From a virus, in the IMG/VR virus record IMGVR_UViG_3300036845_000311, positions 1 to 27,894 of that record: a stretch of DNA of 27,894 bases; one strand, written 5' to 3'. Under the pieces are notes generated by a model. The model was not told where the DNA came from, did no database searches, and was given only the letters and a program-made list of their open reading frames with translations. Made by a program: the position numbers and the translations under genes. Each line of letters starts with the position of its first letter. The first letter of the stretch is position 1. Shown piece after piece: positions 5,818-27,525 of this stretch.

Positions 5818-5823
5818 TAACAT
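5818..5823 (+). promoter_or_regulatory. -10-like box TAACAT before leader copy 1
   Basis: TAACAT ends 7-8 nt before the first paired base of the structured leader. The two other leader copies have TAGAAT and TATACT at the matching place, which supports a real promoter. No -35 element matching TTGACA is evident. Confidence 0.5.
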
Positions 5824-5830
5824 CAGAGCG

Positions 5831-5943
5831 TGGGCGAGGTAGGCCATCCCGCCCAATAGGCCGCACGACTGAGGTAGCCCCTCAGCGCACCTGGCTGGAG
5901 CCCGCCGGGATTTACATCCCTACAGCTCGCCAGGAGGCCCCCT
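5831..5943 (+). ncRNA. Structured 5' leader RNA, copy 1 (before major capsid gene)
   Basis: Three hairpins can be drawn. P1 pairs 5831-5836 with 5850-5855 (TGGGCG/CGCCCA), with a loop containing TAGGCCAT. AGGCCGCA follows at 5858-5865. P2 pairs 5869-5874 with 5880-5885 (CTGAGG/CCTCAG) around a 5-nt loop. P3 pairs 5890-5895 with 5929-5934 (CCTGGC/GCCAGG), continuing with GAGC/GCTC and GGGAT/ATCCC. The last strand of P3 overlaps the Shine-Dalgarno AGGAGG (5932-5937) of the capsid gene, so folding could limit ribosome access. Copies at 16652 and 26990 keep the pairing with different bases in P1 and P2. Not recognised as a named family. Confidence 0.7.
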
Positions 5944-7287
5944 GTGGCCAGTGAAGTTACCAAGAGGCTGCGTGATCGGCGTCTAAATGTCTGGGAGCAG
6001 ACCAAGGCTCTGGCCGACGTTGCTGCTACTGAGAACCGCCAGTTCACTGCTGAGGAGCAGGGAAGCTGGGAGGTTCTGAACGAAGAGATGGACAACCTCG
6101 ACAAGCGGATCAAGGCGGCGCTGGACGCTGAGCAGCGCAGTGCCCAGGCCGACGTGGCGTTCAACCGCCTGCACGAGGACAAGGAAGCCAAGAACCGCGC
6201 CAAGGACCCCGTCTACACCGCGATCAACGAGGAGCTGCGCACCTGGATGCTCGGCGGCTCCAAGGGCAACACCAAGAGCGGCGACGCCTTCGAGCTGGGG
6301 CCGCAGGACTACTCGGTCACCCGTGGCCGGGGTGGCCCGCTGTTCAGCCAGGAGATCCGCAGGGCGATGGATGCCCGGCGTGACGCTGAGTACCGTGCCC
6401 TGTCCACCTCTGGTGCCACGGTCGGTGGCAACCTGGTGCCGACCGACTTCTACGATCAACTGATCGCTCATTTGATTGAGGTCTCGGGAATTTTGCAGTG
6501 CGGGCCCACGGTGCTAAACACCGCCGGCGGCGAGAACCTGCAGATCCCGAAGACCACGGCCCACTCCACCGCAGCCTCGGCTGCCCAGGGCGGCACGCTG
6601 ACCACCAACGACCCGGCCTTCGGCCTGGTCACCTTGTCGGCCTACAAGTACGGCATCCTGCTCCAGGTGGCCCGCGAGCTGCTGGACGACTCCGGTGTGG
6701 ACCTGATCGGCTACCTGGCCATGCAGTCCGGCCGGGCGCTGGGCAACAAGTTCGGCTCCGACCTGGTCACCGGCGTGGGCACCGGCCAGCCGACCGGCCT
6801 GATCAACGTGGCCTCCGGTGTGGCGGGTGGCGTCGTCACCGGCACCACCACCGGCACCACCGGCAAGCCCGGCTACGCCGACCTGGTGGCCATGGAGTAC
6901 TCGGTCATCGCCCCCTACCGTCAGTCCAGGTCGTGCTACTGGCTGGCCAAGGACGCGACCATCGGGAACTTCCGGCTCATCACCGACACCACCGGCCGCC
7001 CGATCTGGGAACCGTCGATGGTGCTGGGGTCGCCTGACCTGCTGCTCGGCAAGCCACTCGTGGCTGACCCGTTCATGCCGTCCACGGCGCTGTCGGGAGT
7101 TGGTGCGGTCGCCTTCGGCGACTTCAGCCAGTTCTTCGTCCGCATCGTCGGCCCGGTCCGCTTCGAGCGGTCCGACGACTTCCTGTTCGGGTCTGACCTG
7201 GTGGCCTTCAGGGCTCTGATCCGTGGCGACGGCACGCTGATTGACCAGACCGGCGCAGTCAAGGTGTACAAAGGCGCGGCAACCTGA
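5944..7287 (+). CDS. Major capsid protein (HK97 fold)
   Basis: A 447-residue protein that forms the head shell. Residues about 1-90 are charged and helical (coiled-coil-like RLRDRRLNVWEQTKALAD...LDKRIKAALDAEQRS), like the delta scaffold region removed by the prohead protease. From about residue 150 the HK97-fold capsid follows: GGNLVPTDFYDQLIAHL, the LQIPKTT strand, YGILLQVARELLDDS, and a C-terminal VGPVRFERSDDFLFGSDLVAFRALIRGDG segment. GTG 5944 is chosen because AGGAGG lies 6 nt upstream. It is preceded by its own promoter-like box and structured leader, and followed by a strong hairpin, so it may form a separately controlled transcript. Confidence 0.93.
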   Translation: MASEVTKRLRDRRLNVWEQTKALADVAATENRQFTAEEQGSWEVLNEEMDNLDKRIKAALDAEQRSAQADVAFNRLHEDKEAKNRAKDPVYTAINEELRTWMLGGSKGNTKSGDAFELGPQDYSVTRGRGGPLFSQEIRRAMDARRDAEYRALSTSGATVGGNLVPTDFYDQLIAHLIEVSGILQCGPTVLNTAGGENLQIPKTTAHSTAASAAQGGTLTTNDPAFGLVTLSAYKYGILLQVARELLDDSGVDLIGYLAMQSGRALGNKFGSDLVTGVGTGQPTGLINVASGVAGGVVTGTTTGTTGKPGYADLVAMEYSVIAPYRQSRSCYWLAKDATIGNFRLITDTTGRPIWEPSMVLGSPDLLLGKPLVADPFMPSTALSGVGAVAFGDFSQFFVRIVGPVRFERSDDFLFGSDLVAFRALIRGDGTLIDQTGAVKVYKGAAT

Positions 7288-8805: not shown

Positions 8806-9930
8806 GTGGATGGTGAAGTCACCGAATGCGGGATCTGCGGGAACGGCGAGCTGAACCTCATCCTTGACCTGGGTGAGCAGCCGCTGGCCGAGCGCATGGA
8901 GATGGACGCCCCGTGCTACCCGCTGGGTCTGCTGCGGTGCCGGGACTGCGGGCTGCTGCAACTGTCATGGGCCGTGGACCAGCGGGAACTGTTCCCCCGC
9001 GACCACCCGTATGCGACGGGGAACAGCCAGGCGCTGCGGCGGCATTACATTGACCTGCGCGCCCAGGTGAGCAGTGGGCTGCACCTGGGAGACCTGGTCG
9101 TGGACATCGGTGCCAACGATGGCACCTTCCTGTCGCTCTGGGACCCCAGGCAGCGCCGGCTGGCCATTGAGCCCACGGCGCAGGCGGTGAAGTGCCAGGG
9201 CAAGGGCATCCCCGTTGAGCAGGAGTTTTTCACGGCAGAACTGGCCGGCAGGCTGCGTGACGAGCACGGCGAGGCGAAGCTGATCACCGCCTGCAACGTG
9301 CTCGCCCATGTCCCTGACCCCCATGACTTCATGGAAGGGGTCATGACCCTGCTGGCCGATGACGGCGTGTTCGTCACCGAGAACGGCCTGGCCTCCGGGA
9401 TCACCGATGAGCTGCAGTACGACTCCATCTACCACGAGCACCTGCGCTACTACTCGGTGGAGACCCTGGCCCGGCTGGCCAGCATGCACGGCATGCAGAT
9501 CACCAGCGTGGAGCACATCCCCATCCACGGTGGCTCATTCCGCACCCGCATCACCAAGCGCCAGGGCGAGCTGGACGTGCGCGCGCACCGCAGCGCGTCC
9601 ATGCTGCATTCGCTGCTGAAGCAGATCAGCGAGCGCGGGCAGGTCACCTACGGGGTGGGGGCGGCCACCCGGGCCAGCACGCTGATCCACTTCGCGGGGA
9701 TCGGCCGCTACCTGGCCGCCGTGTGCGAGACGCCGGGCAGCGACAAGATCGGCCACGTGATGCCGGGTACCGCGATCCCGGTCATCCCGGACGCCAAGCT
9801 GATCGCGGACCAGCCGGACTATGCGCTCGTGCTGGCCTGGCAGATCGCTGGTGACCTGATCCCGGCGCTGAAGCAGAAGGGCTACCTGGGCCAGTTCATC
9901 GTGCCGTTGCCTGAGCCCAGGATCATCTGA
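8806..9930 (+). CDS. SAM-dependent sugar C-methyltransferase
   Basis: A 374-residue protein of the NDP-sugar C-methyltransferase type (TylC3/NovU-like), which adds a methyl group to C3 of a 4-keto deoxysugar. The N-terminal zinc-binding part has Cys8, Cys11, Cys45 and Cys48 (ECGICGN and CRDCG). The SAM-binding loop VVDIGANDGT is at about residues 98-107. The region DSIYHEHLRYYS is the conserved His/Tyr-rich stretch of this family. The C-terminal domain begins with YGVGAATRAST and ends in VPLPEPRII. It overlaps the epimerase gene by TGATG, the first of a run of coupled sugar genes. The exact sugar cannot be stated. Confidence 0.85.
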   Translation: MDGEVTECGICGNGELNLILDLGEQPLAERMEMDAPCYPLGLLRCRDCGLLQLSWAVDQRELFPRDHPYATGNSQALRRHYIDLRAQVSSGLHLGDLVVDIGANDGTFLSLWDPRQRRLAIEPTAQAVKCQGKGIPVEQEFFTAELAGRLRDEHGEAKLITACNVLAHVPDPHDFMEGVMTLLADDGVFVTENGLASGITDELQYDSIYHEHLRYYSVETLARLASMHGMQITSVEHIPIHGGSFRTRITKRQGELDVRAHRSASMLHSLLKQISERGQVTYGVGAATRASTLIHFAGIGRYLAAVCETPGSDKIGHVMPGTAIPVIPDAKLIADQPDYALVLAWQIAGDLIPALKQKGYLGQFIVPLPEPRII

Positions 9931-10493
9931 TGCGCGTCCCGGAGATCGAGGGCGTGCACAGCGTCCATCGCGGCGTGCTCGTGGACGAGCGCGGCAGTTT
10001 CACGTCCTGGTTCGACGCGGAGGATCTGGCGGTGCGCACCGGCCATTCCTATGTGATGGCGGAGGGCACTATCTCGGTGTCCAGCGCCGGCACCATACGC
10101 GGCATTCACTACACGGATGTGCCGCCCGGCCGGGGCAAGTACGTGACCTGCGTGCAGGGGTCCATCTTCGATGTGGCCGTGGACCTGCGCACCGGCTCGC
10201 CCACCTTCGGGGACTGGCGCGGGCAGATGCTCAATGCCCCGGAGGGCACGGCGGTGTTTCTCGCGGAGGGGATTGGCCACGCCTTCCAGGCGGTGAGCGC
10301 TGGCGCGGTAGTGGTTTACCTTTACACCACGGGATTTGATGCCAGCACCTACCGGGCGGTTCACCCGCTGGACCCGGCCATCGGGATTGAGTGGCCCGTC
10401 ATGGGCAGGCCGCTCCTGTCAGCCAAAGACGATGAGGCCCCCAAGCTTGCGGACGCCAGGAGCCTGCCCGCCTGGAAGGACTGTCATGGCTAA
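9930..10493 (+). CDS. RmlC-like dTDP-4-keto-6-deoxyhexose 3,5-epimerase
   Basis: A 187-residue cupin-fold enzyme matching the RmlC family in length and motifs: DERGSFTSWF near the start, GTIRGIHYTD with His60 as the likely catalytic base, VAVDLRTGSPTFG, and EGIGHAFQ before the C-terminal strands. RmlC epimerises C3 and C5 of a 4-keto-6-deoxy sugar nucleotide. It is coupled to the methyltransferase upstream by TGATG, and the following cupin starts inside its last codons. True 3,5-epimerase and single-position epimerase cannot be told apart by eye. Confidence 0.85.
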   Translation: MRVPEIEGVHSVHRGVLVDERGSFTSWFDAEDLAVRTGHSYVMAEGTISVSSAGTIRGIHYTDVPPGRGKYVTCVQGSIFDVAVDLRTGSPTFGDWRGQMLNAPEGTAVFLAEGIGHAFQAVSAGAVVVYLYTTGFDASTYRAVHPLDPAIGIEWPVMGRPLLSAKDDEAPKLADARSLPAWKDCHG

Positions 10494-10848
10494 GCGGTTC
10501 ACCGACGAGCGCGGCACGATCCAGGACATCTTCGGCCCGGTCGATGCGGTGACCGAGATCCGCACCGTCAAGGGCGCGATCCGGGGCAATCACCGTCACG
10601 AGCAGACCATTCAGTGGACCTACATATGCAGCGGGCTGCTGCTGGTCGTCACCGAGCACGGCGGCGTGCGCCACGAGGAGACGCTGCGGCCGGGGCAGAT
10701 CACCTGCGAGCGCCCTGGGGTCGCGCACGCCTGGAAGGCGCTCGAAGACACCACCGTGCTGGTTTTCACGCGCGGCCCGCGCTCAGGGGAGAATTACGAG
10801 AGCGACGTGCAGCGACTTGAGGTGCCGCTGCTGTGCGCGCCCGGCTGA
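10486..10848 (+). CDS. Cupin-domain sugar-modifying protein
   Basis: A 120-residue single-domain cupin starting at ATG 10486, overlapping the end of the RmlC-like gene. It has GNHRHE (His36, His38, Glu39) and a distal VAHAW His81, the metal-site pattern of cupins. Small cupins like this occur in deoxysugar gene sets as ketoisomerases or epimerase-like proteins. The neighbours strongly favour a nucleotide-sugar substrate, but whether it is an isomerase, an epimerase or a binding protein is open. The start is set by the overlap; the frame is open further upstream inside the epimerase gene but encodes no sensible protein there. Confidence 0.75.
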   Translation: MAKRFTDERGTIQDIFGPVDAVTEIRTVKGAIRGNHRHEQTIQWTYICSGLLLVVTEHGGVRHEETLRPGQITCERPGVAHAWKALEDTTVLVFTRGPRSGENYESDVQRLEVPLLCAPG

Positions 10849-10997
10849 TCGTCTGGTTCCGTGATCTGTGCGGGACGGCAATGCGTGCCAGGCGCTGTCC
10901 TGGCTGCCACAAGCGCGGCGGTGTCAGTGCGGTATGGAATGCGGATGATACCTGGACGTTTAGCTGCCGCACATGCGGCTGGGAAGGCCGGCATTAG
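10833..10997 (+). CDS. Small zinc-ribbon protein
   Basis: A 54-residue protein. GTG 10833 lies inside the end of the cupin gene, with GAGGT upstream; ATG 10881 is an alternative start. The core is CPGCHKRG...FSCRTCGWEG, two CxxC knuckles about 20 residues apart, a classic zinc ribbon. Its TAG stop shares a base with the GTG of the next gene (TAGTG), so the reading frame is embedded in a chain of coupled genes, which argues that it is real. The role may be nucleic-acid or protein binding; nothing more specific can be seen. Confidence 0.65.
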   Translation: MRARLIVWFRDLCGTAMRARRCPGCHKRGGVSAVWNADDTWTFSCRTCGWEGRH

Positions 10998-11947
10998 TGC
11001 GCGCTCTCATAACGGGGATCACCGGCCAGGATGGCCCCTATCTCGCCTCCCACCTGGACGCAGCCGGGTGGGATGTCGCCGGGCTGGTGCGCGGGCAGAT
11101 GAGCTGGCGCTGGGACGAGGCGCAGATGCTCGTGCCCCGGATGAGCCTGGTGCGCGGCGACCTGCTGGACATGTCCTCCCTCCAGCAGGCCCTCGTCAGC
11201 TTCCGGCCTGACGTGGTGTTCAACCTGGCGGCCCTGTCGTTCGTGGGCACCTCCTGGCTGGAGCCCGAGGTGACCGCGCAGGTGACCGGGCTGGGCTGCC
11301 TGCGCCTGCTGGAGGCCATCCGGCTCACTGATCCGTCCATCAGGTTTGTGCAGGCGTCCAGCTCGGAGATGTTCGGCGGCGCGCACCCGCTGCCACAGGA
11401 CGAGACGACGCCGTTCGCACCGCAGAGCCCGTACGCGGTGGCCAAGGTGCTGGCGCACCAGATCACGGTGAACTACCGCGAGTCTTACGGCATGCACGCC
11501 TCGGCGGCGGTCATGTTCAACCACGAGTCGCCGCGCCGGGGGCGCGAGTTCGTCACCCGCCGCATCACCAGGGCGGTGGCCCGCATCGCGGCGGGCACCC
11601 GGAATGAGGTGACCCTCGGCCGGCTGGACCCCTGCCGCGACTGGGGCTGGGCACCGGAGTACATGGCGGCGCTGCCGCTGATCGCGGCGCTCGATGAGCC
11701 TGATGACTTCGTGCTGGCCACCGGCCGGTCCTATTCTGTGGGTGAATGGTGCCAGGCGGCATTCGCGGAGGCCGGCCTGGACTACCGCGATCACGTGCGG
11801 GAAGACCCGGGCCGGTACCGGCCAGCCGAGGTGCAGTGCCTGCGTGGCAACGCGGCCAAAGCGAAGCGGTTGCTCGGCTGGGAGGCTTCGGTATCATTCA
11901 GTGAGATCGTAAAGCGCATGGTTGCGGCCGACATGGAGGCCCTGTGA
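10997..11947 (+). CDS. GDP-mannose 4,6-dehydratase-like SDR enzyme
   Basis: A 316-residue extended short-chain dehydrogenase. The cofactor loop GITGQDG (residues 7-13) is the GDP-mannose dehydratase version. SSSEMFG follows at about 121-127, then the catalytic Tyr146/Lys150 pair (YAVAK), the NHESPRRG substrate segment and the late CRDWGWAPEY region. It would convert a GDP-hexose to its 4-keto-6-deoxy form, or a related SDR reaction. GTG 10997 is chosen over ATG 10973 because it fits the family's start and the TAGTG coupling. Its end overlaps the next gene by GTGA. It differs clearly from the RmlB-like enzyme at 21160, so the phage has two dehydratases. Confidence 0.85.
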   Translation: MRALITGITGQDGPYLASHLDAAGWDVAGLVRGQMSWRWDEAQMLVPRMSLVRGDLLDMSSLQQALVSFRPDVVFNLAALSFVGTSWLEPEVTAQVTGLGCLRLLEAIRLTDPSIRFVQASSSEMFGGAHPLPQDETTPFAPQSPYAVAKVLAHQITVNYRESYGMHASAAVMFNHESPRRGREFVTRRITRAVARIAAGTRNEVTLGRLDPCRDWGWAPEYMAALPLIAALDEPDDFVLATGRSYSVGEWCQAAFAEAGLDYRDHVREDPGRYRPAEVQCLRGNAAKAKRLLGWEASVSFSEIVKRMVAADMEAL

Positions 11948-12684
11948 AGGTCATTTCCCCAGCCCTGACCATCATCATGGCCACGCACATGAATCCCCTG
12001 CTGGAAGAGGCGCTGAAGTCGGTCCTGGCCCAGACCCGCAAAGACCTGGAATGCGTCGTGGCCGATTCGGGCCTGTGGATCGGCCAGAACGACGCGCACA
12101 GCGTGAAGCGCGCCGCCTGCCACCGGAAGTATGCCGGCCACCCATTGATCAACTGGGTGACGACGGGCGAGCTGCCGGGGCTGCGGAAGCGGACGTGCGC
12201 CCCGTCGTGGGTGGCGAACCAGGTGATCCGCGCCGGGCTGGTGCGGGGGCGTTACGCCTGCGTGGCTTATGACGATGATCTTTACAAGCCGGACTTCGCC
12301 GCGAAGATGTGCGGCTACCTGGACTGGCACCCCGAGGACATGGCGGTCACCTGCTCCCAGGACCGCACAACCCTCCACCATGACGGCACCAAGCGCCTCG
12401 ACTACATTATCCACGCCCTGCCGCACCGCCAGCCGGGGAACTTCGACTGCCAGATGGACGGCTCGGCCATCGTGTTCCGCAGGGACGTGCTGGATAAGCT
12501 GGGCGACCCGTGGCTGCCCGAGGAGCAGGACACCTGCGACCACTCCGATGGCGTGTTCCTGGAGCGCATAGCGGGAGCGACAGGCCCGGTGCCGGGTATC
12601 GGTGAGGTGCTGTGTGAGCACCGGATCTCGCCGTGGTCGGCATTCACCTGGACCAGCCCGCAGGGCTCCTGGGTGCGGGCATGA
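11944..12684 (+). CDS. Glycosyltransferase family 2-like (GT-A fold), first of three
   Basis: A 246-residue protein starting at GTG 11944 in a GTGA overlap. SPALTIIMATHMNPLLEEALKS is the first strand and helix of a GT-A domain, and CVAYDDDLYKPDF (Asp110-112) is the metal- and nucleotide-binding acidic motif. CQMDGSAIVFRRDVL fits the acceptor-side segment, where the enzyme recognises its target. It transfers a sugar from a nucleotide donor to an unknown acceptor. No membrane segment is seen, so it would act in the cytoplasm, for example on virion proteins or on a glycan precursor. Confidence 0.8.
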   Translation: MKVISPALTIIMATHMNPLLEEALKSVLAQTRKDLECVVADSGLWIGQNDAHSVKRAACHRKYAGHPLINWVTTGELPGLRKRTCAPSWVANQVIRAGLVRGRYACVAYDDDLYKPDFAAKMCGYLDWHPEDMAVTCSQDRTTLHHDGTKRLDYIIHALPHRQPGNFDCQMDGSAIVFRRDVLDKLGDPWLPEEQDTCDHSDGVFLERIAGATGPVPGIGEVLCEHRISPWSAFTWTSPQGSWVRA

Positions 12685-12685
12685 C

Positions 12686-13315
12686 ATGGCTGGCCCCACC
12701 TGGGATGTGCTGATCTCGACCATCCCGCACCGGGACGGCAAGCTGCGCAAGCTGCTGGCCGAGTTCCACCGGCAGTGGCGGCCGGGCTTCGGGGTGCGGA
12801 TGCTGCGGGACAATCTGCAGCGGCGCGAGATCGACAGCCACGCCAAGCGCGGGGACCTGATCCGCTCCTCGTCCGCCGACTACGTGTGCGATGTGGACGA
12901 TGACGACTGGATCGCCCCTGACTACGTGCCGTCCATCATGAAGGCGCTGCGCTCGCGTCCCGACTACGTGGGCTTCCTGGTCAACTGGACCAAGGACGGC
13001 CAGCACCACGCCATCGTCCGCCATTCGCTGGAGTATGACCGCTACAACAGCCCGGGTGAGCCGTGGACCCGGGACATCACCCACCTCAACCCCATACGCC
13101 GTGAGCTGGCCCTGCTCGGGGACTGGACGGGACGGGTTGACGAGGAGTGGTCGGCCCAGGTGCGCGAGTCCGGCCAGGTGAAGACCCAGGTGATGATCGA
13201 CAAGGTGATGTACCACTATCACTTCGACCAGAGTGACAACTTCCGTACCCCCCGCTCGCCGTGGACATTCCCGCTGGCCCCCCTGCCGGAATACCCGTGG
13301 CTGACCGTCCTCTGA
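12686..13315 (+). CDS. Glycosyltransferase family 2-like (GT-A fold), second
   Basis: A 209-residue protein starting at ATG 12686, just after the previous stop. It opens with WDVLISTIPHRDGKLRKLL, the first strand and helix of a GT-A fold. It carries CDVDDDDW (Asp69-Asp74) as the donor/metal motif. The first strand is more like those of capsular or teichoic-type transferases than of the previous protein, so it is not a close duplicate. The C terminus is Pro-rich and overlaps the start of the third transferase. Donor and acceptor are unknown. Confidence 0.78.
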   Translation: MAGPTWDVLISTIPHRDGKLRKLLAEFHRQWRPGFGVRMLRDNLQRREIDSHAKRGDLIRSSSADYVCDVDDDDWIAPDYVPSIMKALRSRPDYVGFLVNWTKDGQHHAIVRHSLEYDRYNSPGEPWTRDITHLNPIRRELALLGDWTGRVDEEWSAQVRESGQVKTQVMIDKVMYHYHFDQSDNFRTPRSPWTFPLAPLPEYPWLTVL

Positions 13316-13914
13316 TCGACGTCCTGCTGCCCTCACGCGGGCGGCCGGCCCTCCTGTCCCGCGCCATTGATTCGCTGCGGGGGCTGGCCATTTACCCCGC
13401 CCGGGTCGGTGTGATCGTCGGCGCGGACACTGACGACCGGGCGACAATAACGGCGGCAGACGGAGCGGGGGCGGACTGCCTGATATCTGAGCGCCACGGC
13501 TATGAGCGCCTGCATGTCTACTACCAGCAGCTCGCCGCCGCGTCGCGGGCCAGGTGGCTGCTGGTGTGGAACGACGACGCGGTCATGCTCACCCAGGGCT
13601 GGGACACCGTGCTGGACCATCTGCCCCGGAGCGTCCTGGTGGCGGACCTGCAGTCTCACCATTCACCCATGTGCTGCTTCCCGGCCGTGCGGCGCGAGGC
13701 GGTGCGGGCGGCCGGGAAGTTCAGCAGCGACAATCCGCACGTGGACTCATTCTGGCAGGTGGTGGGCGAGCTGTCCGGGACCATTGCCGCCGTGCCCATT
13801 GAGGTCCACCACGAGCAGGGCAGCCGCGCCGGCAATGAGCATGGCTTCCATGATCCCGCTCACCTGGCAGAATTGGCCCTGTGTGCGCAGCGGTGCCGGG
13901 AGGCAGTCTCATGA
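13297..13914 (+). CDS. Glycosyltransferase family 2-like (GT-A fold), third
   Basis: A 205-residue protein. GTG 13297 is chosen because it begins the family-like sequence ADRPLIDVLLPSRGRPALLSRA right at the first strand, and it overlaps the previous gene by 19 bases. The acidic motif is WNDDAVML (Asp93, Asp94). Later residues (VHHEQGSRAGNEHGF) may include the catalytic-side His/Glu. It is a short enzyme for the family, so it may have a minimal acceptor domain. It ends in an ATGA overlap with the GT4 gene, continuing the tightly packed glycosylation operon. Confidence 0.78.
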   Translation: MADRPLIDVLLPSRGRPALLSRAIDSLRGLAIYPARVGVIVGADTDDRATITAADGAGADCLISERHGYERLHVYYQQLAAASRARWLLVWNDDAVMLTQGWDTVLDHLPRSVLVADLQSHHSPMCCFPAVRREAVRAAGKFSSDNPHVDSFWQVVGELSGTIAAVPIEVHHEQGSRAGNEHGFHDPAHLAELALCAQRCREAVS

Positions 13915-15032
13915 AGGCCGATGGGCCGGTAAGGGCGGGTGCCCAGTCGCAACCTGGGGGAAGTGGTTTGGACGCAGAAATCGCGCCTGGCGCGAGGCTC
14001 ATGGACCCGCCCGCTGCCTTCACGTCCTCGGTGTGGGGGATTCATGACTCCCAGGACCCCGGGAACCCGGCCTCCCCGCCCACGGGATGCGGATACCAGA
14101 GAGTCGTGCTTCCCCTGGATGAGCTGGGCAGGCATGGCTGGGTGACGCGGTACCGGGCGGGCCGGCCGCCGCCTGAGATTGAGCGGGCGAAGCTGATCGT
14201 CGGGGAGCGGCTGGACCGGCCCGACGTGATGGGCGAGTGGCGGCGGTACCGCGCCCGGCACCGGCTCATCTATGAGCTGGACGACGACGTGTGGACCGTC
14301 GATCCCACCAACACCATGGCCTGGAAGTGCTACTCCATCCACAGTGTGCAGGACGCGGTGGAAACGCTGAGCGCCATGTCGGACCTGGTAACGGTTTCGA
14401 CGGAGCCGCTCGCAGAGGTGGTGCGCCGGCGTACTGGCCAGTCCTGTGTCCGGGTGCTGAAAAACTGCATACCGCAGGAGATGCTGCTCATCGAGCGGCC
14501 CCGGCGGGAGAACCTGACTATTGGCTGGACGGGCGGCGGCTCTCATGCGCTGGATGTGGCGCAGATAGCCACGGCGGTGCGCCGGGCCATGGACACTCTC
14601 CCGGATGCGCGGCTGCACATTCTGGGCACTGATTTCCGCCCCACGTTCGGGCACATGCACGCCCGGCACACGAAATGGGTTCCCATCCAGCGGGACTATT
14701 ACCGCCTGCTGGACTTTGATATTGGCCTGGCCCCCATCGTGACCAGCGAGTTCAACGAATCGAAGTCCTACCTGAAGGCCCTGGAATACGCCGCGCTCGG
14801 TATCCCTGTGGTCGCATCAGACTTCGGCCCGTACAAGGAGTTTGTCGTAGACGGCGTGACCGGGTTCCTGGTCAGCAAGAAAGGCCAGTGGACGGACCGC
14901 ATCCGGCTGCTGGCCACCGACGCGGACCTGCGCGAGTCTATGGGGCAGAAAGCCCGTGAGGTGGCTGCCCAGCATACGATTGAGCGCAACTGGCACGAGT
15001 GGGCCACTGTGTACCAAGAGGCACTGTCCTAG
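13911..15032 (+). CDS. Glycosyltransferase family 4-like (GT-B fold), copy 1
   Basis: A 373-residue GT-B transferase starting at ATG 13911, in an ATGA overlap. The first 35 residues are low complexity; from about residue 40 it reads SSVWGIHDSQ and RVVLPLDELGRHGW, shared with the second copy at 15382. The nucleotide-binding C-terminal domain carries the retaining-GT4 hallmark ALEYAALGIPVVASD with Glu292, followed by KEFVVDGVTGFLV (Glu310). It would transfer an activated sugar with retention of configuration. The paralogue lies two genes downstream; only a small gene separates them. Confidence 0.87.
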   Translation: MKADGPVRAGAQSQPGGSGLDAEIAPGARLMDPPAAFTSSVWGIHDSQDPGNPASPPTGCGYQRVVLPLDELGRHGWVTRYRAGRPPPEIERAKLIVGERLDRPDVMGEWRRYRARHRLIYELDDDVWTVDPTNTMAWKCYSIHSVQDAVETLSAMSDLVTVSTEPLAEVVRRRTGQSCVRVLKNCIPQEMLLIERPRRENLTIGWTGGGSHALDVAQIATAVRRAMDTLPDARLHILGTDFRPTFGHMHARHTKWVPIQRDYYRLLDFDIGLAPIVTSEFNESKSYLKALEYAALGIPVVASDFGPYKEFVVDGVTGFLVSKKGQWTDRIRLLATDADLRESMGQKAREVAAQHTIERNWHEWATVYQEALS

Positions 15033-15040
15033 GAGGAGCC

Positions 15041-15385
15041 ATGGCCGAGGGCCTGGTTAAGGTCCGGATCATCCAGCAGGCCAGCGGTCCTGGCTCGGTC
15101 CCGCTGGGGACCATCCTGGAGGTCACCCCGGAGGAGGCGCGCGGGCTGTGCTCTGCGGGGGCTAGCCAGTCCACCCCGTTCGCCGTCATGGTGACAGAGG
15201 ACCGTACCGAGACGGCCGACGCGCCCGAGAAGCGCAACGTTGAGACGCGGGGCACCAGCACGGCCACCGCCGCACCGAAGGTGCAGGAGCCCGCCAAGGC
15301 CGAGGAGCCCAAGGCCGAGGAGGAGCCCGCCAAGCGCGGCCCAGGCCGCCCGCCGGGCAGCACGAACCGGCCTAAGCCCCAGTGA
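15041..15385 (+). CDS. Small protein with AT-hook-like tail between the two GT4 genes
   Basis: A 114-residue protein starting at ATG 15041, with a strong AGGAGGAG ribosome site. Residues 1-55 (LVKVRIIQQASGPGSVPLGTILEVTPEEARGL) resemble the small beta-rich proteins encoded near phage head genes. The second half is low complexity with KAEEPKAEEE and then KRGPGRPPGS, an AT-hook-like GRP motif that can touch the DNA minor groove. A role in the head is inferred from the N-terminal resemblance, not proven. It sits between two paralogous glycosyltransferases, and its stop overlaps the next start by GTGA. Confidence 0.65.
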   Translation: MAEGLVKVRIIQQASGPGSVPLGTILEVTPEEARGLCSAGASQSTPFAVMVTEDRTETADAPEKRNVETRGTSTATAAPKVQEPAKAEEPKAEEEPAKRGPGRPPGSTNRPKPQ

Positions 15386-16371
15386 GGGAGCGCTCCGTCT
15401 GGGGCCTCCACGACAACCAGGGCCTGGGCACCACGATGCCCTCGGGCTGCGGCTTCTACCGGGTTGTCCTTCCACTTGACGAGCTGGCCCGCAACGGCTG
15501 GAAGACCGGCTACAGCCTCGGCATGCCTGACTGGGACCCGGGGGTCTTCGTCGGCCAGCGGTTCGACCAGGCGGGCGTGCTGCCGCTGTGGCGCACCCTC
15601 AAAGATCACTACGGGCTGGTCTATGAGATTGACGATGACCCGTTCACGGTGGACAAGGCCAACTGGCTGGCCACCGTCACCTACACCCGTGAGGAGGCGC
15701 TGGCCACCATCCGGGAGGCGGCGGCCATCGCCGACCTGGTGACGGTGACCACGGAGCCGCTGGCCGGGGTGTTCCGGAAGTTCAACCCGGAGGTCCGCGT
15801 CCTGCCCAACTACATCCCGGCGTCCATGCTGGCCCTGAAGCGGCCCCGCCACGAGAAGCTGACCATGGGCTGGGCGGGCGGCGTGTCGCACATGCGGGAC
15901 GTGGCCATGATCGCGCAGACCTGGCGGGACGTGCTGGACGAGACGGGGGTGCGCGGCCACTTCGTCGGCACCCAGTATTTCAACATGATGCGCCCGCGCG
16001 GCTTCGACTACACCCCCTGGGCACCCGACCCGCGCGACTACTATGAGCTGCTGGACTTCGACATCGGCCTGGTCCCCATCGCCGATGTCCCGTTCGCGCG
16101 GAGCAAGTCGTGGGTCAAGGCCCTGGAGTTCGCCGCGCTCGGTATCCCTGTGATCGCATCCGACTGTGAGGCGTACCGCGATTTCGTGATCGACGGGCTG
16201 ACCGGGTTCCTGGTCCGCACCCAGCATGAGTGGCGCGAGGCCATGATGACACTGATCACCGATGAGCGGCTGCGCGCGGAGATGGGGAACGCGGCGCGCA
16301 GGCATGCCCGCGCGTACACCATTGAGGGGAACTGGCAGCAGTGGGACAAGGTCTACTCGGAACTTCTGTAG
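15382..16371 (+). CDS. Glycosyltransferase family 4-like (GT-B fold), copy 2
   Basis: A 329-residue GT-B enzyme starting at GTG 15382. It is clearly paralogous to the gene at 13911, sharing SVWGLHDNQ, RVVLPLDELARNGW, YEIDDDPFTVD and ALEFAALGIPVIASD with Glu249 and the VIDGLTGFLV end. It lacks the low-complexity N terminus of copy 1. The two copies probably act in sequence on one glycan, or use different donors. It ends 9 bases before the next small gene. Confidence 0.87.
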   Translation: MRERSVWGLHDNQGLGTTMPSGCGFYRVVLPLDELARNGWKTGYSLGMPDWDPGVFVGQRFDQAGVLPLWRTLKDHYGLVYEIDDDPFTVDKANWLATVTYTREEALATIREAAAIADLVTVTTEPLAGVFRKFNPEVRVLPNYIPASMLALKRPRHEKLTMGWAGGVSHMRDVAMIAQTWRDVLDETGVRGHFVGTQYFNMMRPRGFDYTPWAPDPRDYYELLDFDIGLVPIADVPFARSKSWVKALEFAALGIPVIASDCEAYRDFVIDGLTGFLVRTQHEWREAMMTLITDERLRAEMGNAARRHARAYTIEGNWQQWDKVYSELL

Positions 16372-16380
16372 GAGGCGGCA

Positions 16381-16641
16381 ATGGCAGGTGAGGTAGGCAA
16401 GGTCCAGCCCGTCGATCAGGGCCACTGGGAGGACGGCAAGTTCGTCGCCCCCGAAGGCTGGCCCGAGGGCGCGGGCTGGGTGGTCATGAACGAGGACGGC
16501 TCCTTCGCCCAGTGGGGGCCGGCCAGTGACCTGGCCCTGGTCGTCACCACCCTCATCGGGGACCCGGAGCCACTGCCACCTGCGTCTCAGCTAAGCGCGT
16601 CGTTCACTGGCAGTCCTGTTCCGGAGCCCGGTGACGAGTAG
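16381..16641 (+). CDS. Hypothetical small protein before leader copy 2
   Basis: An 86-residue acidic protein starting at ATG 16381 with GGAGG upstream. The first half is rich in Trp, Gly and Glu (GHWEDGKFVAPEGWPEGAGWVV), the second half is hydrophobic and then Pro/Ser-rich. No family is recognised. Its stop codon forms part of the -10-like box TAGAAT of the next transcription unit. It may be a virion or chaperone protein; the evidence is only context. Confidence 0.6.
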   Translation: MAGEVGKVQPVDQGHWEDGKFVAPEGWPEGAGWVVMNEDGSFAQWGPASDLALVVTTLIGDPEPLPPASQLSASFTGSPVPEPGDE

Positions 16642-16644
16642 AAT
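16639..16644 (+). promoter_or_regulatory. -10-like box TAGAAT before leader copy 2
   Basis: TAGAAT overlaps the TAG stop of the previous gene and ends 7 nt before the first P1 base (16652) of the structured leader, matching the geometry of copies 1 and 3. A -35 element is not clear. Confidence 0.5.
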
Positions 16645-16651
16645 CCCTTAC

Positions 16652-16761
16652 GACGGCGCTAGGCTAACCGCCGTCTAGCTAGGCCGCAGCCCAGGGTCGC
16701 CCCCTGGCACCTGGCTGAGCCCGCTGGGACCCCATTCAGGTACCCGGCTAGGAGTTCAGGC
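16652..16761 (+). ncRNA. Structured 5' leader RNA, copy 2
   Basis: P1 pairs GACGGCG (16652-16658) with CGCCGTC (16669-16675). The invariant AGGCCGCA is at 16681-16688. P2 pairs CCAGGG (16691-16696) with CCCTGG (16702-16707) around TCGCC. P3 pairs CCTGGCTG (16710-16717) with CGGCTAGG (16745-16752) with two G-U pairs, enclosing GGGACC paired to GGTACCC with one bulged A. The Shine-Dalgarno TAGGAG (16749-16754) overlaps the closing strand of P3, 7 nt before ATG 16762. Base changes against copy 1 keep the pairing, which supports a selected structure. Confidence 0.7.
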
Positions 16762-17184
16762 ATGGCGGCCATTGACAACGCACAGGCCAAGGGCGTCCTC
16801 GCGGGGATGCTGGGCATCACCGGCTTCCCCGCTTCCGCCGTGAACCCCATGTGGGTGCGGCTGATGACCGCCAACGGCGTCACCACGGCCAACGGCAGCG
16901 AGTTCGGCAACGGCTCCGGGTACACCACGGGTGGCCAGAGCGGCAGCTTCTCCGCGATCAACACCGGCGCGGGCGGCCCGACCTCCCAGGGGATGACCGC
17001 AGCGGCGGCCCTGTCGTGGACGGCGGCCACCGGCACCTGGGTGATCACCGGCTTCGAGCTGTGGGACAACGCGGGCACCAAGCTGCGCTGGTGGTTCGGC
17101 ACCTTCACCGGCGGCAACGTCACGGTGGCCCCCGGCCAGGTGCTCCAGATCGCCACCAACGCCATCTCCGTGACGCTGAGCTGA
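16762..17184 (+). CDS. Gp80-like phage tail-fibre/virion protein
   Basis: A 140-residue protein starting at ATG 16762. It has the layout of a short phage structural family often labelled tail fibre or gp80-like. An N-terminal helix (DNAQAKGVLAGMLG) is followed by beta strands with NPMWVRLMTANGV, an alternating Gly/Ser/Thr middle, then GTWVITGFELWDNAG and a last strand (VTVAPGQVLQIATNAISVTLS). It is one of the three genes directly preceded by the conserved structured leader, which suggests high or specially timed expression. Its place within the virion is unknown. Confidence 0.7.
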   Translation: MAAIDNAQAKGVLAGMLGITGFPASAVNPMWVRLMTANGVTTANGSEFGNGSGYTTGGQSGSFSAINTGAGGPTSQGMTAAAALSWTAATGTWVITGFELWDNAGTKLRWWFGTFTGGNVTVAPGQVLQIATNAISVTLS

Positions 17185-26635: not shown

Positions 26636-26956
26636 ATGGCCGATGAGGCTTGGAGTCAGCCCTGGGATGAGGCCCCTCTTGTGACTCCACCGACAGGCAG
26701 AGGAGCCCCCCCGCCCATATACGGCGACGACGGCCAGCGGTATATCTCGGTGGCCCAGCTAGCGCGCGCCCTGGACGTCCCTGCTCAGACGGTGCGCACC
26801 TGGCGGGACAGAGATGCCCTCACGCAAGTTAGTGACGACGACCTGCCAGATGCCCTGCGCGGCGGCCGTGAAGTGTGGTTCGACTACGACGTAGCCGTCC
26901 GGCAGCTCCATGGAACCGGGAAGATAACTGATCAGGAACACCGGCACTGGCTCTGA
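26636..26956 (+). CDS. Small MerR/excisionase-like HTH DNA-binding protein
   Basis: A 106-residue protein. ATG 26636 is used because the upstream extension in the same frame lies in the intergenic repeat and carries no domain. YISVAQLARALDVPAQTVRTWRDRDAL is a winged-helix or MerR-type helix-turn-helix, as in excisionases and small phage regulators. The C-terminal part is acidic and aromatic (REVWFDYDVAVRQLHG). Its stop codon lies within a 26-bp perfect palindrome that abuts the next promoter, so it may regulate the major tail transcript by binding there; that link is inference. Confidence 0.75.
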   Translation: MADEAWSQPWDEAPLVTPPTGRGAPPPIYGDDGQRYISVAQLARALDVPAQTVRTWRDRDALTQVSDDDLPDALRGGREVWFDYDVAVRQLHGTGKITDQEHRHWL

Positions 26957-26975
26957 GTGGCCGGCCACTCAGAGC
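26950..26975. promoter_or_regulatory. 26-bp perfect palindrome, operator or terminator
   Basis: The half site GCTCTGAGTGGCC (26950-26962) is followed immediately by its exact reverse complement (26963-26975). It contains the TGA stop of the HTH gene and ends 2 nt before the TATACT box at 26978, so as DNA it covers the -35 region of the major tail promoter. As RNA it can fold into an 11-bp stem with a GGCC loop, without a U-run. The position fits an operator and also a terminator for the HTH gene. Confidence 0.6.
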
Positions 26976-26977
26976 GC

Positions 26978-26983
26978 TATACT
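26978..26983 (+). promoter_or_regulatory. -10-like box TATACT before leader copy 3
   Basis: TATACT is the best -10 match of the three leader promoters and ends 6 nt before P1 (26990). No TTGACA-like -35; the -35 region is filled by the 26-bp palindrome. Confidence 0.6.
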
Positions 26984-26989
26984 GCCTAA

Positions 26990-27105
26990 GACGGAGTAGG
27001 CCATCCCGTCAGGCCGCAGTGCCGGTCCTGGGCAGTCCCCAGGGCTCTGGCTGGGTCCCGCCAGGAAGTCACATAAGCAACACTCAGTGACGGAGCGGTG
27101 ACACT
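26990..27105 (+). ncRNA. Structured 5' leader RNA, copy 3 (before major tail gene)
   Basis: P1 pairs GACGG (26990-26994) with CCGTC (27006-27010), with TAGGCCAT in the loop. AGGCCGCA is at 27011-27018. P2 pairs CCTGGG (27027-27032) with CCCAGG (27038-27043) around CAGTC. P3 is shorter than in the other copies, CTGGC (27047-27051) with GCCAG (27060-27064). About 40 nt of unpaired-looking sequence separates P3 from the start codon at 27106, so here the ribosome site (GGAG about 27082-27085) is outside the stem. The conserved bases match copies 1 and 2. Confidence 0.68.
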
Positions 27106-27525
27106 GTGGCACGAATCCACGGCAAGAGCGGGATGGTCTACGTCGGGATACTGACTGGTGGCTCTGCGTCACCAATTGCATATCTCACCGACTGGAACCT
27201 CAACTTCACGGTGGACCAGCCCGAGGTCACCGCGTTCGGCGACGCGAACAAGATCTACGTGTCCGGCCTGCCAGACGCTTCCGGCGACTTTTCCGGGTTT
27301 TTCGACGACGCGAGCCAGCAGCTCTACGTCGCGGCCCGTGACGGAATCGCGCGCCCCATGTACCTGTACCCGAACCTGGTCGCGGACCCGAACGAGTACT
27401 GGTTCGGCAACATTCTGCCAGATTTCGCGGTCAGTGGCGGGATAGCTGCGGCCATCAGCATCAAGAGCAACTGGAAGGCCAGCTCGGCGGTCAAGAAGTA
27501 CGACCCAGTGAACGGCGTCGTCTGA
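27106..27525 (+). CDS. Major tail tube protein
   Basis: A 139-residue protein starting at GTG 27106. It has the look of short siphovirus tail-tube proteins: ARIHGKSGMVYVGILTGG, AYLTDWNLNFTVDQPEVTAFGD, then SGLPDASGDFSGFFDDASQQLY and a C-terminal strand set (GIAAAISIKSNWKASSAVKKYD). Many copies stack to make the tail tube. The leader and promoter before it match those of the capsid gene, in line with both being made in large amounts. The reading as tail tube is strong but rests on pattern alone. Confidence 0.82.
   Translation: MARIHGKSGMVYVGILTGGSASPIAYLTDWNLNFTVDQPEVTAFGDANKIYVSGLPDASGDFSGFFDDASQQLYVAARDGIARPMYLYPNLVADPNEYWFGNILPDFAVSGGIAAAISIKSNWKASSAVKKYDPVNGVV

Follow-up and report, generated by a model that had tools for sequence, protein, structure and literature searches.

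Structured RNA leaders in front of capsid and tail genes: an apparently undescribed family among soil phages

The locus and its three leaders

The DNA considered here, 27,894 bp long and referred to throughout as the window, is an IMG/VR virus contig from an uncultivated soil virus of bacteria. Within it are three leaders of about 115 nt each (5831-5943, 16650-16761, and 26988-27105) that, as can be read directly, possess the same parts in the same order, i.e., a hairpin (P1), the linker AGGCCGCA, a second hairpin (P2), and then a P3 region beginning with CTGGCTG. A -10 box of the form TANNNT (TAACAT, TAGAAT, and TATACT, respectively) is found 6-7 nt before each leader, and each leader runs as far as a start codon, in every case that of a gene for a virion protein. 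The genes are those of the major capsid protein (MCP), a Gp80-like fibre protein, and the major tail protein (MTP), with the leaders described respectively as W1 (copy 1), W2 (copy 2), and W3 (copy 3). An initial annotation had claimed a structured RNA leader repeated in front of virion genes. Direct reading confirms the order of parts that it gave, starting from the promoter-like box, and finds all of its P1 and P2 pairings to be correct, while its naming of the genes agrees with the family matches given below. The overall reading is supported in turn by homologues, by comparison with Rfam, and by these gene identities. The features are as follows.

5818..5823, + strand: -10 box TAACAT of copy 1, with the transcription start predicted near 5830 (TANNNT scan)
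5831..5855, + strand: copy 1 P1, TGGGCG 5831-5836 with CGCCCA 5850-5855 (read directly)
5840-5846, + strand: copy 1 P1 loop motif TAGGCCA (read directly)
5858..5865, + strand: copy 1 conserved linker AGGCCGCA (read directly; homologue alignment)
5869..5885, + strand: copy 1 P2, CTGAGG 5869-5874 with CCTCAG 5880-5885, loop TAGCC (covariation in 4/5 pairs)
5890..5909, + strand: copy 1 local P3, CCTGGC with GCCGGG, loop TGGAGCCC (reading, alignment, folding)
5907..5920, + strand: copy 1 P4, GGGAT with ATCCC, the GGG being common with local P3 (reading, folding)
5929-5934, + strand: alternative partner of the copy 1 CCTGGC, GCCAGG at the Shine-Dalgarno sequence (reading, folding)
5932..5937, + strand: copy 1 Shine-Dalgarno sequence AGGAGG, partly within the long P3 arm (reading, folding)
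5944..7287, + strand: major capsid protein gene, GTG start (phrog_10, E 8e-62)
16639..16644, + strand: -10 box TAGAAT of copy 2 (TANNNT scan)
16652..16675, + strand: copy 2 P1, GACGGCG 16652-16658 with CGCCGTC 16669-16675, loop CTAGGCTAAC (reading, model R1)
16681..16688, + strand: copy 2 linker AGGCCGCA (read directly)
16691..16707, + strand: copy 2 P2, CCAGGG 16691-16696 with CCCTGG 16702-16707, loop TCGCC (reading, covariation)
16710..16754, + strand: copy 2 P3 region, from CCTGGCTGAGCCCGCTGGG to the Shine-Dalgarno sequence AGGAG at 16750-16754 (read directly)
within 16710..16754, + strand: copy 2 CCTGGC, able to pair with GCTAGG at the Shine-Dalgarno sequence (reading, duplex test)
16762..17184, + strand: Gp80-like fibre protein gene, 140 aa (PF23140, E 1.7e-5, 25.6 bits and thus just under the Pfam cut-off of 27)
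26950..26975, no strand assigned: perfect 26-bp palindrome lying immediately before the -10 box of copy 3 (read directly)
26978..26983, + strand: -10 box TATACT of copy 3 (reading, TANNNT scan)
26990..27010, + strand: copy 3 P1, GACGG 26990-26994 with CCGTC 27006-27010, loop AGTAGGCCATC (reading, model R1)
27011..27018, + strand: copy 3 linker AGGCCGCA (read directly)
27027..27043, + strand: copy 3 P2, CCTGGG 27027-27032 with CCCAGG 27038-27043, loop CAGTC (reading, covariation)
27047..27064, + strand: copy 3 local P3, CTGGC with GCCAG, loop TGGGTCCC; same form in L440 (reading, alignment)
27068..27091, + strand: copy 3 P4, GTCAC with GTGAC; GTCCG with CGGAC in the MTP leader L440 (read directly)
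27106..27525, + strand: major tail protein gene, GTG start (phrog_10528, E 3e-9)

Two further aspects of the window can be described here. The palindrome reaches into the end of the gene before it as well as abutting the copy 3 -10 box, and possible readings of it are as an operator or instead as the terminator stem of the preceding unit; L125, L130, and L132 likewise have hairpins, without T tails, ahead of the promoter. Between the capsid and fibre genes (8806-16371) are sugar genes, i.e., those of a methyltransferase, a dTDP-4-dehydrorhamnose 3,5-epimerase, and a glycosyltransferase, whose products perhaps glycosylate either the virion or the host surface.

The pattern AGGCCGCA-N(8-35)-CTGGCTG occurs in the window three times on the + strand, zero times on the - strand, and zero times in reversed form, with a stricter form of this core pattern giving 0 matches in 100 shuffles. 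The three leaders thus are more than would be expected by chance. Covariance model R1 matches them with E-values of 1.2e-18, 1.8e-14, and 6.4e-13 (next best 7e-4), though as the three belong to the training set of that model, independent support comes instead from homologues. Folding energy in comparison with dinucleotide shuffles has a z of -2.6 for copy 1 and is weak for copies 2 and 3 (-1.2 and -0.5), and the case for the leaders therefore rests on comparison rather than on stability. By reading, no small reading frame is common to the three copies, and leader-peptide control consequently was rejected. The contexts of the Shine-Dalgarno sequences, too, differ among the three (CCAGGAGGCCCCCT, GCTAGGAGTTCAGGC, and GACGGAGCGGTGACACT).

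Homologues of the window form

The form seen in the window is described here as type A. Using the MCP as query, 80 loci were obtained from viral contigs. In most of the closest of these loci, whose MCPs are ~65-80% identical, the MCP gene is immediately preceded by the same leader, the exceptions being L147 to L152 and L154. Pattern scans together with R1 yielded 17 distinct type A copies, which precede genes for the MCP, the MTP (L340, L440), the Gp80-like protein (W2), and a 206-aa protein of no assigned family (L343/L353). Dozens of related IMG/VR contigs contain R1 matches, which precede MCP, MTP, or a fourth gene, and a whole record has one to three clear type A copies. Of the 17 copies, 16 have a TANNNT box at a distance of 5-9 nt upstream of P1, as against a background of 0.0019 per position.

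Two stretches of sequence, GGCCGYA and GGCUGGAGCC, are nearly invariant across type A copies, with the GGCCG and the A of the linker invariant in 16 of them. What had been described initially as an invariant linker is indeed the same AGGCCGCA in all three window copies, but among homologues it is GGCCGYA that is kept, with the leading A varying. Both GGCC motifs, i.e., that of the P1 loop and that of the linker, which had been put forward initially as possible partners in a pseudoknot, are likewise nearly invariant, only copy 2 having GGCU, which remains compatible through G-U pairing.

At orthologous genes, type A leaders are kept down to ~68% MCP identity, and this includes features that are specific to the gene being led. 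Particularly, MTP leaders (W3 and others) differ from MCP leaders in having a shorter spacing between -10 box and P1 and in being without an arm that reaches the Shine-Dalgarno sequence, which suggests that copies specific to a gene have a long history of inheritance.

Other leader-like sequences are seen at these same positions. Before the MTP gene of L437/L438, L434, and L439 is a 40-nt hairpin (GAGGCCGCA..CCTC...GAGG..GCGGC) that buries the Shine-Dalgarno sequence, and the same upstream DNA carries in L428/L340 a full type A leader; leader cassettes before MTP genes, that is, seem from these sequences to have been exchanged among records. Upstream of the MCP gene, L147-L151 and L162 have another leader form, the hairpin loops of which contain GNAGCCYG and resemble the type A P3 loop UGGAGCCC. 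In L160, L163, and L175, also upstream of the MCP gene, AGTCGC/GCGACT or AGTT/AACT closes a domain that is followed by TAGCCACCCGGA, with the changes in this closing helix apparently compensatory.

Covariation and RNA structure

The initial annotation had seen covariation in P1 and P2 from the three window copies. Searching with a covariance model returned only the three matches in the window along with homologues, and these homologues display compensatory changes in both helices. In the model-fitted alignment A6, which leans toward the model structure, 89.9% of cells are paired versus 82% in shuffles, doubly changed cells number 21 versus 5.5, and the covariation score is 0.236 versus 0.121; pairing is clearly lost when partners are slid. 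Considered helix by helix, 93.1% of P1 cells are paired, with A-U to G-C exchanges, P2 has both-side changes in 4 of 5 pairs, and for local P3 (CYGGC/GCCRG) 97.6% of cells are paired, one pair being seen as U.G, U-A, and C-G. From the unguided MAFFT alignment A2, RNAalifold recovers only local P3 and a GGCC-GGCC contact, without a covariation term. By an APC-corrected G-test over 6037 column pairs, a P2 pair ranks first and a P1 pair tenth, which is 2 of 13 helix pairs within the top 10 given 17 sequences with an effective number of 14, and thus low power. P1 and P2 in addition, by a test that does not rely on alignment, fold better than shuffles over 15 copies (Fisher p of 1e-8 and 4e-13, respectively, values that are optimistic as the rows are related).

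These observations bear on whether the inverted repeats might function solely as DNA, that is, as operators of a late transcription regulator, with the RNA having no role. The elements do lie just downstream of promoters, and a perfect 26-bp palindrome does abut the copy 3 -10 box. The arms change together, however, to unrelated sequences with complementarity kept, as is expected of RNA helices rather than of fixed protein half-sites, and the elements are one-sided, being found on the + strand only and always on the transcribed side. We consider a purely DNA-level element to be very unlikely.

Type B and more distant forms

Relatives with MCPs that are 57-64% identical have before the MCP gene a different leader, type B, for which 46 distinct sequences were collected and which can be summarized as CUGC/ACCG...GGCCGUAG-hairpin-CGGACGGAGCC...GCAG/CGGU. 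It is found before MTP genes as well (L238, L247, L464, and L471, with an expanded form in L543). In 119-kb, 83-kb, and 61-kb records, the type B model, R2, has exactly two strong matches each, at MCP and MTP. A 210-kb record matches strongly at MCP, has a second match ~1 kb before MTP, and yields a third, weaker one ahead of a Gp80-like gene, such that the marked genes are of the three kinds found in the window. In G062, a weaker type B match lies ~1 kb upstream of the MTP gene.

With a plain MAFFT alignment, 4 of 4 pairs of the type B outer helix are compensated (e.g., ACCG/CGGU to ACCU/AGGU), one of these pairs occurring as C-G 22 times, as U-A 13 times, and as U-G 7 times, and the type B covariation score is reached by 0 of 500 shuffles. 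In the APC-corrected G-test, subtype structure masks the type B helix pairs.

A further form, CCGWGGCC-hairpin-GGAGCCGG, precedes the MTP genes (L456, L470, L496) and MCP genes (L541, L542) of records that are more distant still. Models for types A and B do not cross-detect, and a common origin of the two consequently rests on shared motif and position. Going by the AGGCC...GGAGCC core together with position, type A, type B, and the CCGWGGCC form are suggested to be one family. As a separate observation, two group I introns, at positions 429-713 and 848-1112 of L537 (RF00028, E 5e-12 and 3e-12; record G028, minus strand), interrupt an MTP gene that lies behind a type B leader.

Could the resemblance among leaders simply be chance, or reflect a functionless, GC-rich intergenic stretch that was duplicated recently? 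W2 and W3 folding no better than dinucleotide shuffles would be in keeping with this, but orthologous copies are retained, with their gene-specific features, to ~68% MCP identity, and two structural types are placed alike at MCP and MTP genes, leaving such an explanation with a negligible likelihood. As judged from comparative sequence, the three window segments are very probably members of one structured phage RNA family, the copies of which are placed by promoters at or within a few nt of the predicted 5' ends of late mRNAs, ahead of genes for abundant virion proteins (MCP and MTP, together with a Gp80-like or another gene), and come as two types, A and B, in the same genomic places.

The Shine-Dalgarno arm

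P3 had been described initially as a hairpin, and a local hairpin (CYGGC/GCCRG) is present, but so too is a competing long arm that reaches the Shine-Dalgarno sequence. CCUGGC thus has two mutually exclusive partners, either the local GCCGGG or instead GCCAGG/GCUAGG at the Shine-Dalgarno sequence, with the long arm consisting of GAGCCCG paired with CGGGCUUC. For most MCP copies (e.g., L124, L127, L138, L153, and L334), folding of the 3' tail, with its Shine-Dalgarno sequence paired, exceeds that of shuffles (p 0.003-0.017). MTP copies W3, L340, and L440 have either no such arm or a weak one, and in W1 it is not significant (p 0.3-0.4). This difference between MCP and MTP copies suggests that sequestration of the Shine-Dalgarno sequence is an added feature of some copies rather than a common function. 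The part kept by all copies is the core, not the arm.

A translational operator could be built from such parts. The arm, CCUGG..GAGCCCG with CGGGCUUC..CAGG, would hide the Shine-Dalgarno sequence, and a phage protein bound to the core, whether a virion protein or a late regulator, would lock or open it, thereby timing or balancing capsid and tail synthesis. The folding of MCP tails and the two exclusive partners of CCUGGC speak for this, and a location near the start codon in nearly all copies, along with the Shine-Dalgarno sequence lying within MCP-type arms, does suggest a translational role. Such an operator nevertheless seems unlikely, given those copies in which the arm is missing, weak, or not significant, given that retention of the core is what all copies share, and given that in most type B copies the Shine-Dalgarno sequence lies outside of the core. 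Binding by a virion protein, also raised initially, is one of several possibilities.

Database searches and host

Searching Rfam 15 gave no match to the window leaders at E-values up to 5, to the copy 1 region at values up to 1, or to a type B leader, and, at gathering score among 17 related loci, nothing but a tRNA. A known RNA family was rejected on these negatives, in agreement with the initial annotation, which knew of no named family having this layout. Among cultivated phages, neither copy 1 nor a type B leader was matched at the DNA level by BLAST, the best MCP is below 60% identity, and the MTP is without match. No description of such leaders was found in the literature searched, which included few subscription journals, such that earlier mention is possible. 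This phage mRNA leader family at late-gene starts is real and, apparently, undescribed.

A prophage or cellular element was considered as well and rejected, there being neither an MCP relative nor, by exact pattern, a true occurrence of the core in bacterial or archaeal genomes. That is, 84,980 bacterial and archaeal species genomes contain no MCP relatives, and the two exact matches to the type A core in bacterial genomes lie inside reading frames without P1, i.e., are chance. One type B record (G064) encodes a WhiB protein, a weak pointer to Actinobacteria as hosts.

What the leaders may do

The leader probably helps to switch on or boost those proteins that are made in the largest amounts. 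The main rival to the mechanism that we favour would achieve this through the mRNA itself, as a 5' stabiliser plus translation enhancer, with P1 blocking attack on the 5' end and the remainder presenting or tuning the Shine-Dalgarno sequence. The leader of phage T7 gene 10 is the parallel. There a 5' hairpin on the major capsid mRNA, followed by a strong Shine-Dalgarno sequence, serves as an expression enhancer, with transcription by T7 RNA polymerase from its own class of promoter. Copy 1 has this same anatomy, i.e., a 5'-terminal hairpin (going by the predicted start) and then a Shine-Dalgarno sequence, before a major capsid gene. The predicted 5' end at P1, a leader that is the whole of the 5' UTR and ends at the Shine-Dalgarno sequence, targets among which are the virion proteins of greatest abundance (MCP and MTP), and the free variability of hairpin sequences all would fit. 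A stabiliser in its simple form needs no conserved core, however, yet GGCCGYA and GGCUGGAGCC are nearly invariant (we know of no AGGCC/GGAGCC core in the T7 leader), and the G062 leader lies ~1 kb from its MTP start. We view a stabiliser as possible though somewhat improbable.

A conserved sequence core, rather than conserved stems only, implies a specific, conserved reader. The same core occurring at capsid as well as tail genes implies that this reader acts in trans, and with the element placed at the predicted first nucleotides of each operon, it is RNA polymerase that would be met first. The G062 element, ~1 kb before the MTP gene, also fits an action upon transcription better than one upon initiation at that codon. 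Our favoured explanation, to which as a whole (RNA family plus put-like, co-transcriptional reading) we assign a probability of about 0.36, therefore is that the core, AGGCCGYA ... GGAGCC, held between hairpins that are free in sequence but kept in pairing, would be read by a conserved trans partner as the leader RNA leaves RNA polymerase. The most likely partner would be RNA polymerase itself, or else a Nus or phage factor upon it. A polymerase so modified would then pause and terminate less often along the long late operon, as with the put RNAs of phage HK022, while in MCP copies the 3' arm would additionally fold over the Shine-Dalgarno sequence. It is on this analysis that we prefer a co-transcriptional element to a translational operator and to a stabiliser or enhancer of the mRNA, and that RNA polymerase is taken as the most likely reader. 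Weighing against put-like action, sites resembling intrinsic terminators are no more frequent in the window than chance would give, and there thus is no visible terminator to read through. Canonical -35/-10 promoters and T-tailed terminators also are not above shuffles.

Comparison with known phage leaders

The put RNAs of HK022 (putL and putR) are ~70 nt long, with two stem-loops and internal bulges, are cis-acting, and occur one per operon, putL being directly downstream of its promoter (PMC9378689). The window elements are like put in coming directly after a promoter, in having several hairpins, and in being found one per unit. They differ in that put is found in early operons of a lambdoid phage that infects E. 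coli, whereas the present leaders belong to late virion genes and mostly end at a start codon. An RNA-only action on RNA polymerase, furthermore, has been shown experimentally for put, which suppresses termination or pausing through binding to the beta' zinc-binding domain, whereas the leaders described here are known from sequence comparison and put-like action is what we infer for them. Neither R1 nor R2 has a match, up to E 5, in HK022 24000-40751 (16.8 kb with cI, cro, nun, and flanks).

Cluster K mycobacteriophages possess repeats just upstream of gene starts, of unknown function, consisting of SAS, a short repeat over the ribosome-binding site, and ESAS, a 17-bp imperfect inverted-repeat pair with a variable spacer (PMC3203893). 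SAS/ESAS have a per-genome consensus and are found at many genes, whereas the present leaders have free hairpin sequences and just 2-3 copies per virus; nor is a repeat found here to cover the ribosome-binding site, the Shine-Dalgarno surroundings differing among the three copies. The cyanophage-associated manA and wcaG are metagenome-derived structured RNAs in phage 5' UTRs (PMC2864571). These differ from the present leaders in structure and in targets (metabolism, exopolysaccharide), and no Rfam model matches the latter.

Implications

In abundant dsDNA phages of uncultivated soil bacteria, little is known of the ways in which capsid and tail protein output is raised and balanced, and one RNA module that marks capsid and tail genes across a whole phage group provides a handle on late gene control. 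Both types, with their covariance models, constitute a new RNA family to annotate. As a more far-reaching and doubtful proposal, the leaders could represent a new class of nascent RNA that, from the first nucleotides of late operons, reprograms the host transcription complex in soil phages, probably of Actinobacteria, in a manner analogous to put though with unrelated sequence and with late instead of early genes as the targets. The leader is in any case a candidate RNA-polymerase- or ribosome-directed element, with possible use as an expression leader.
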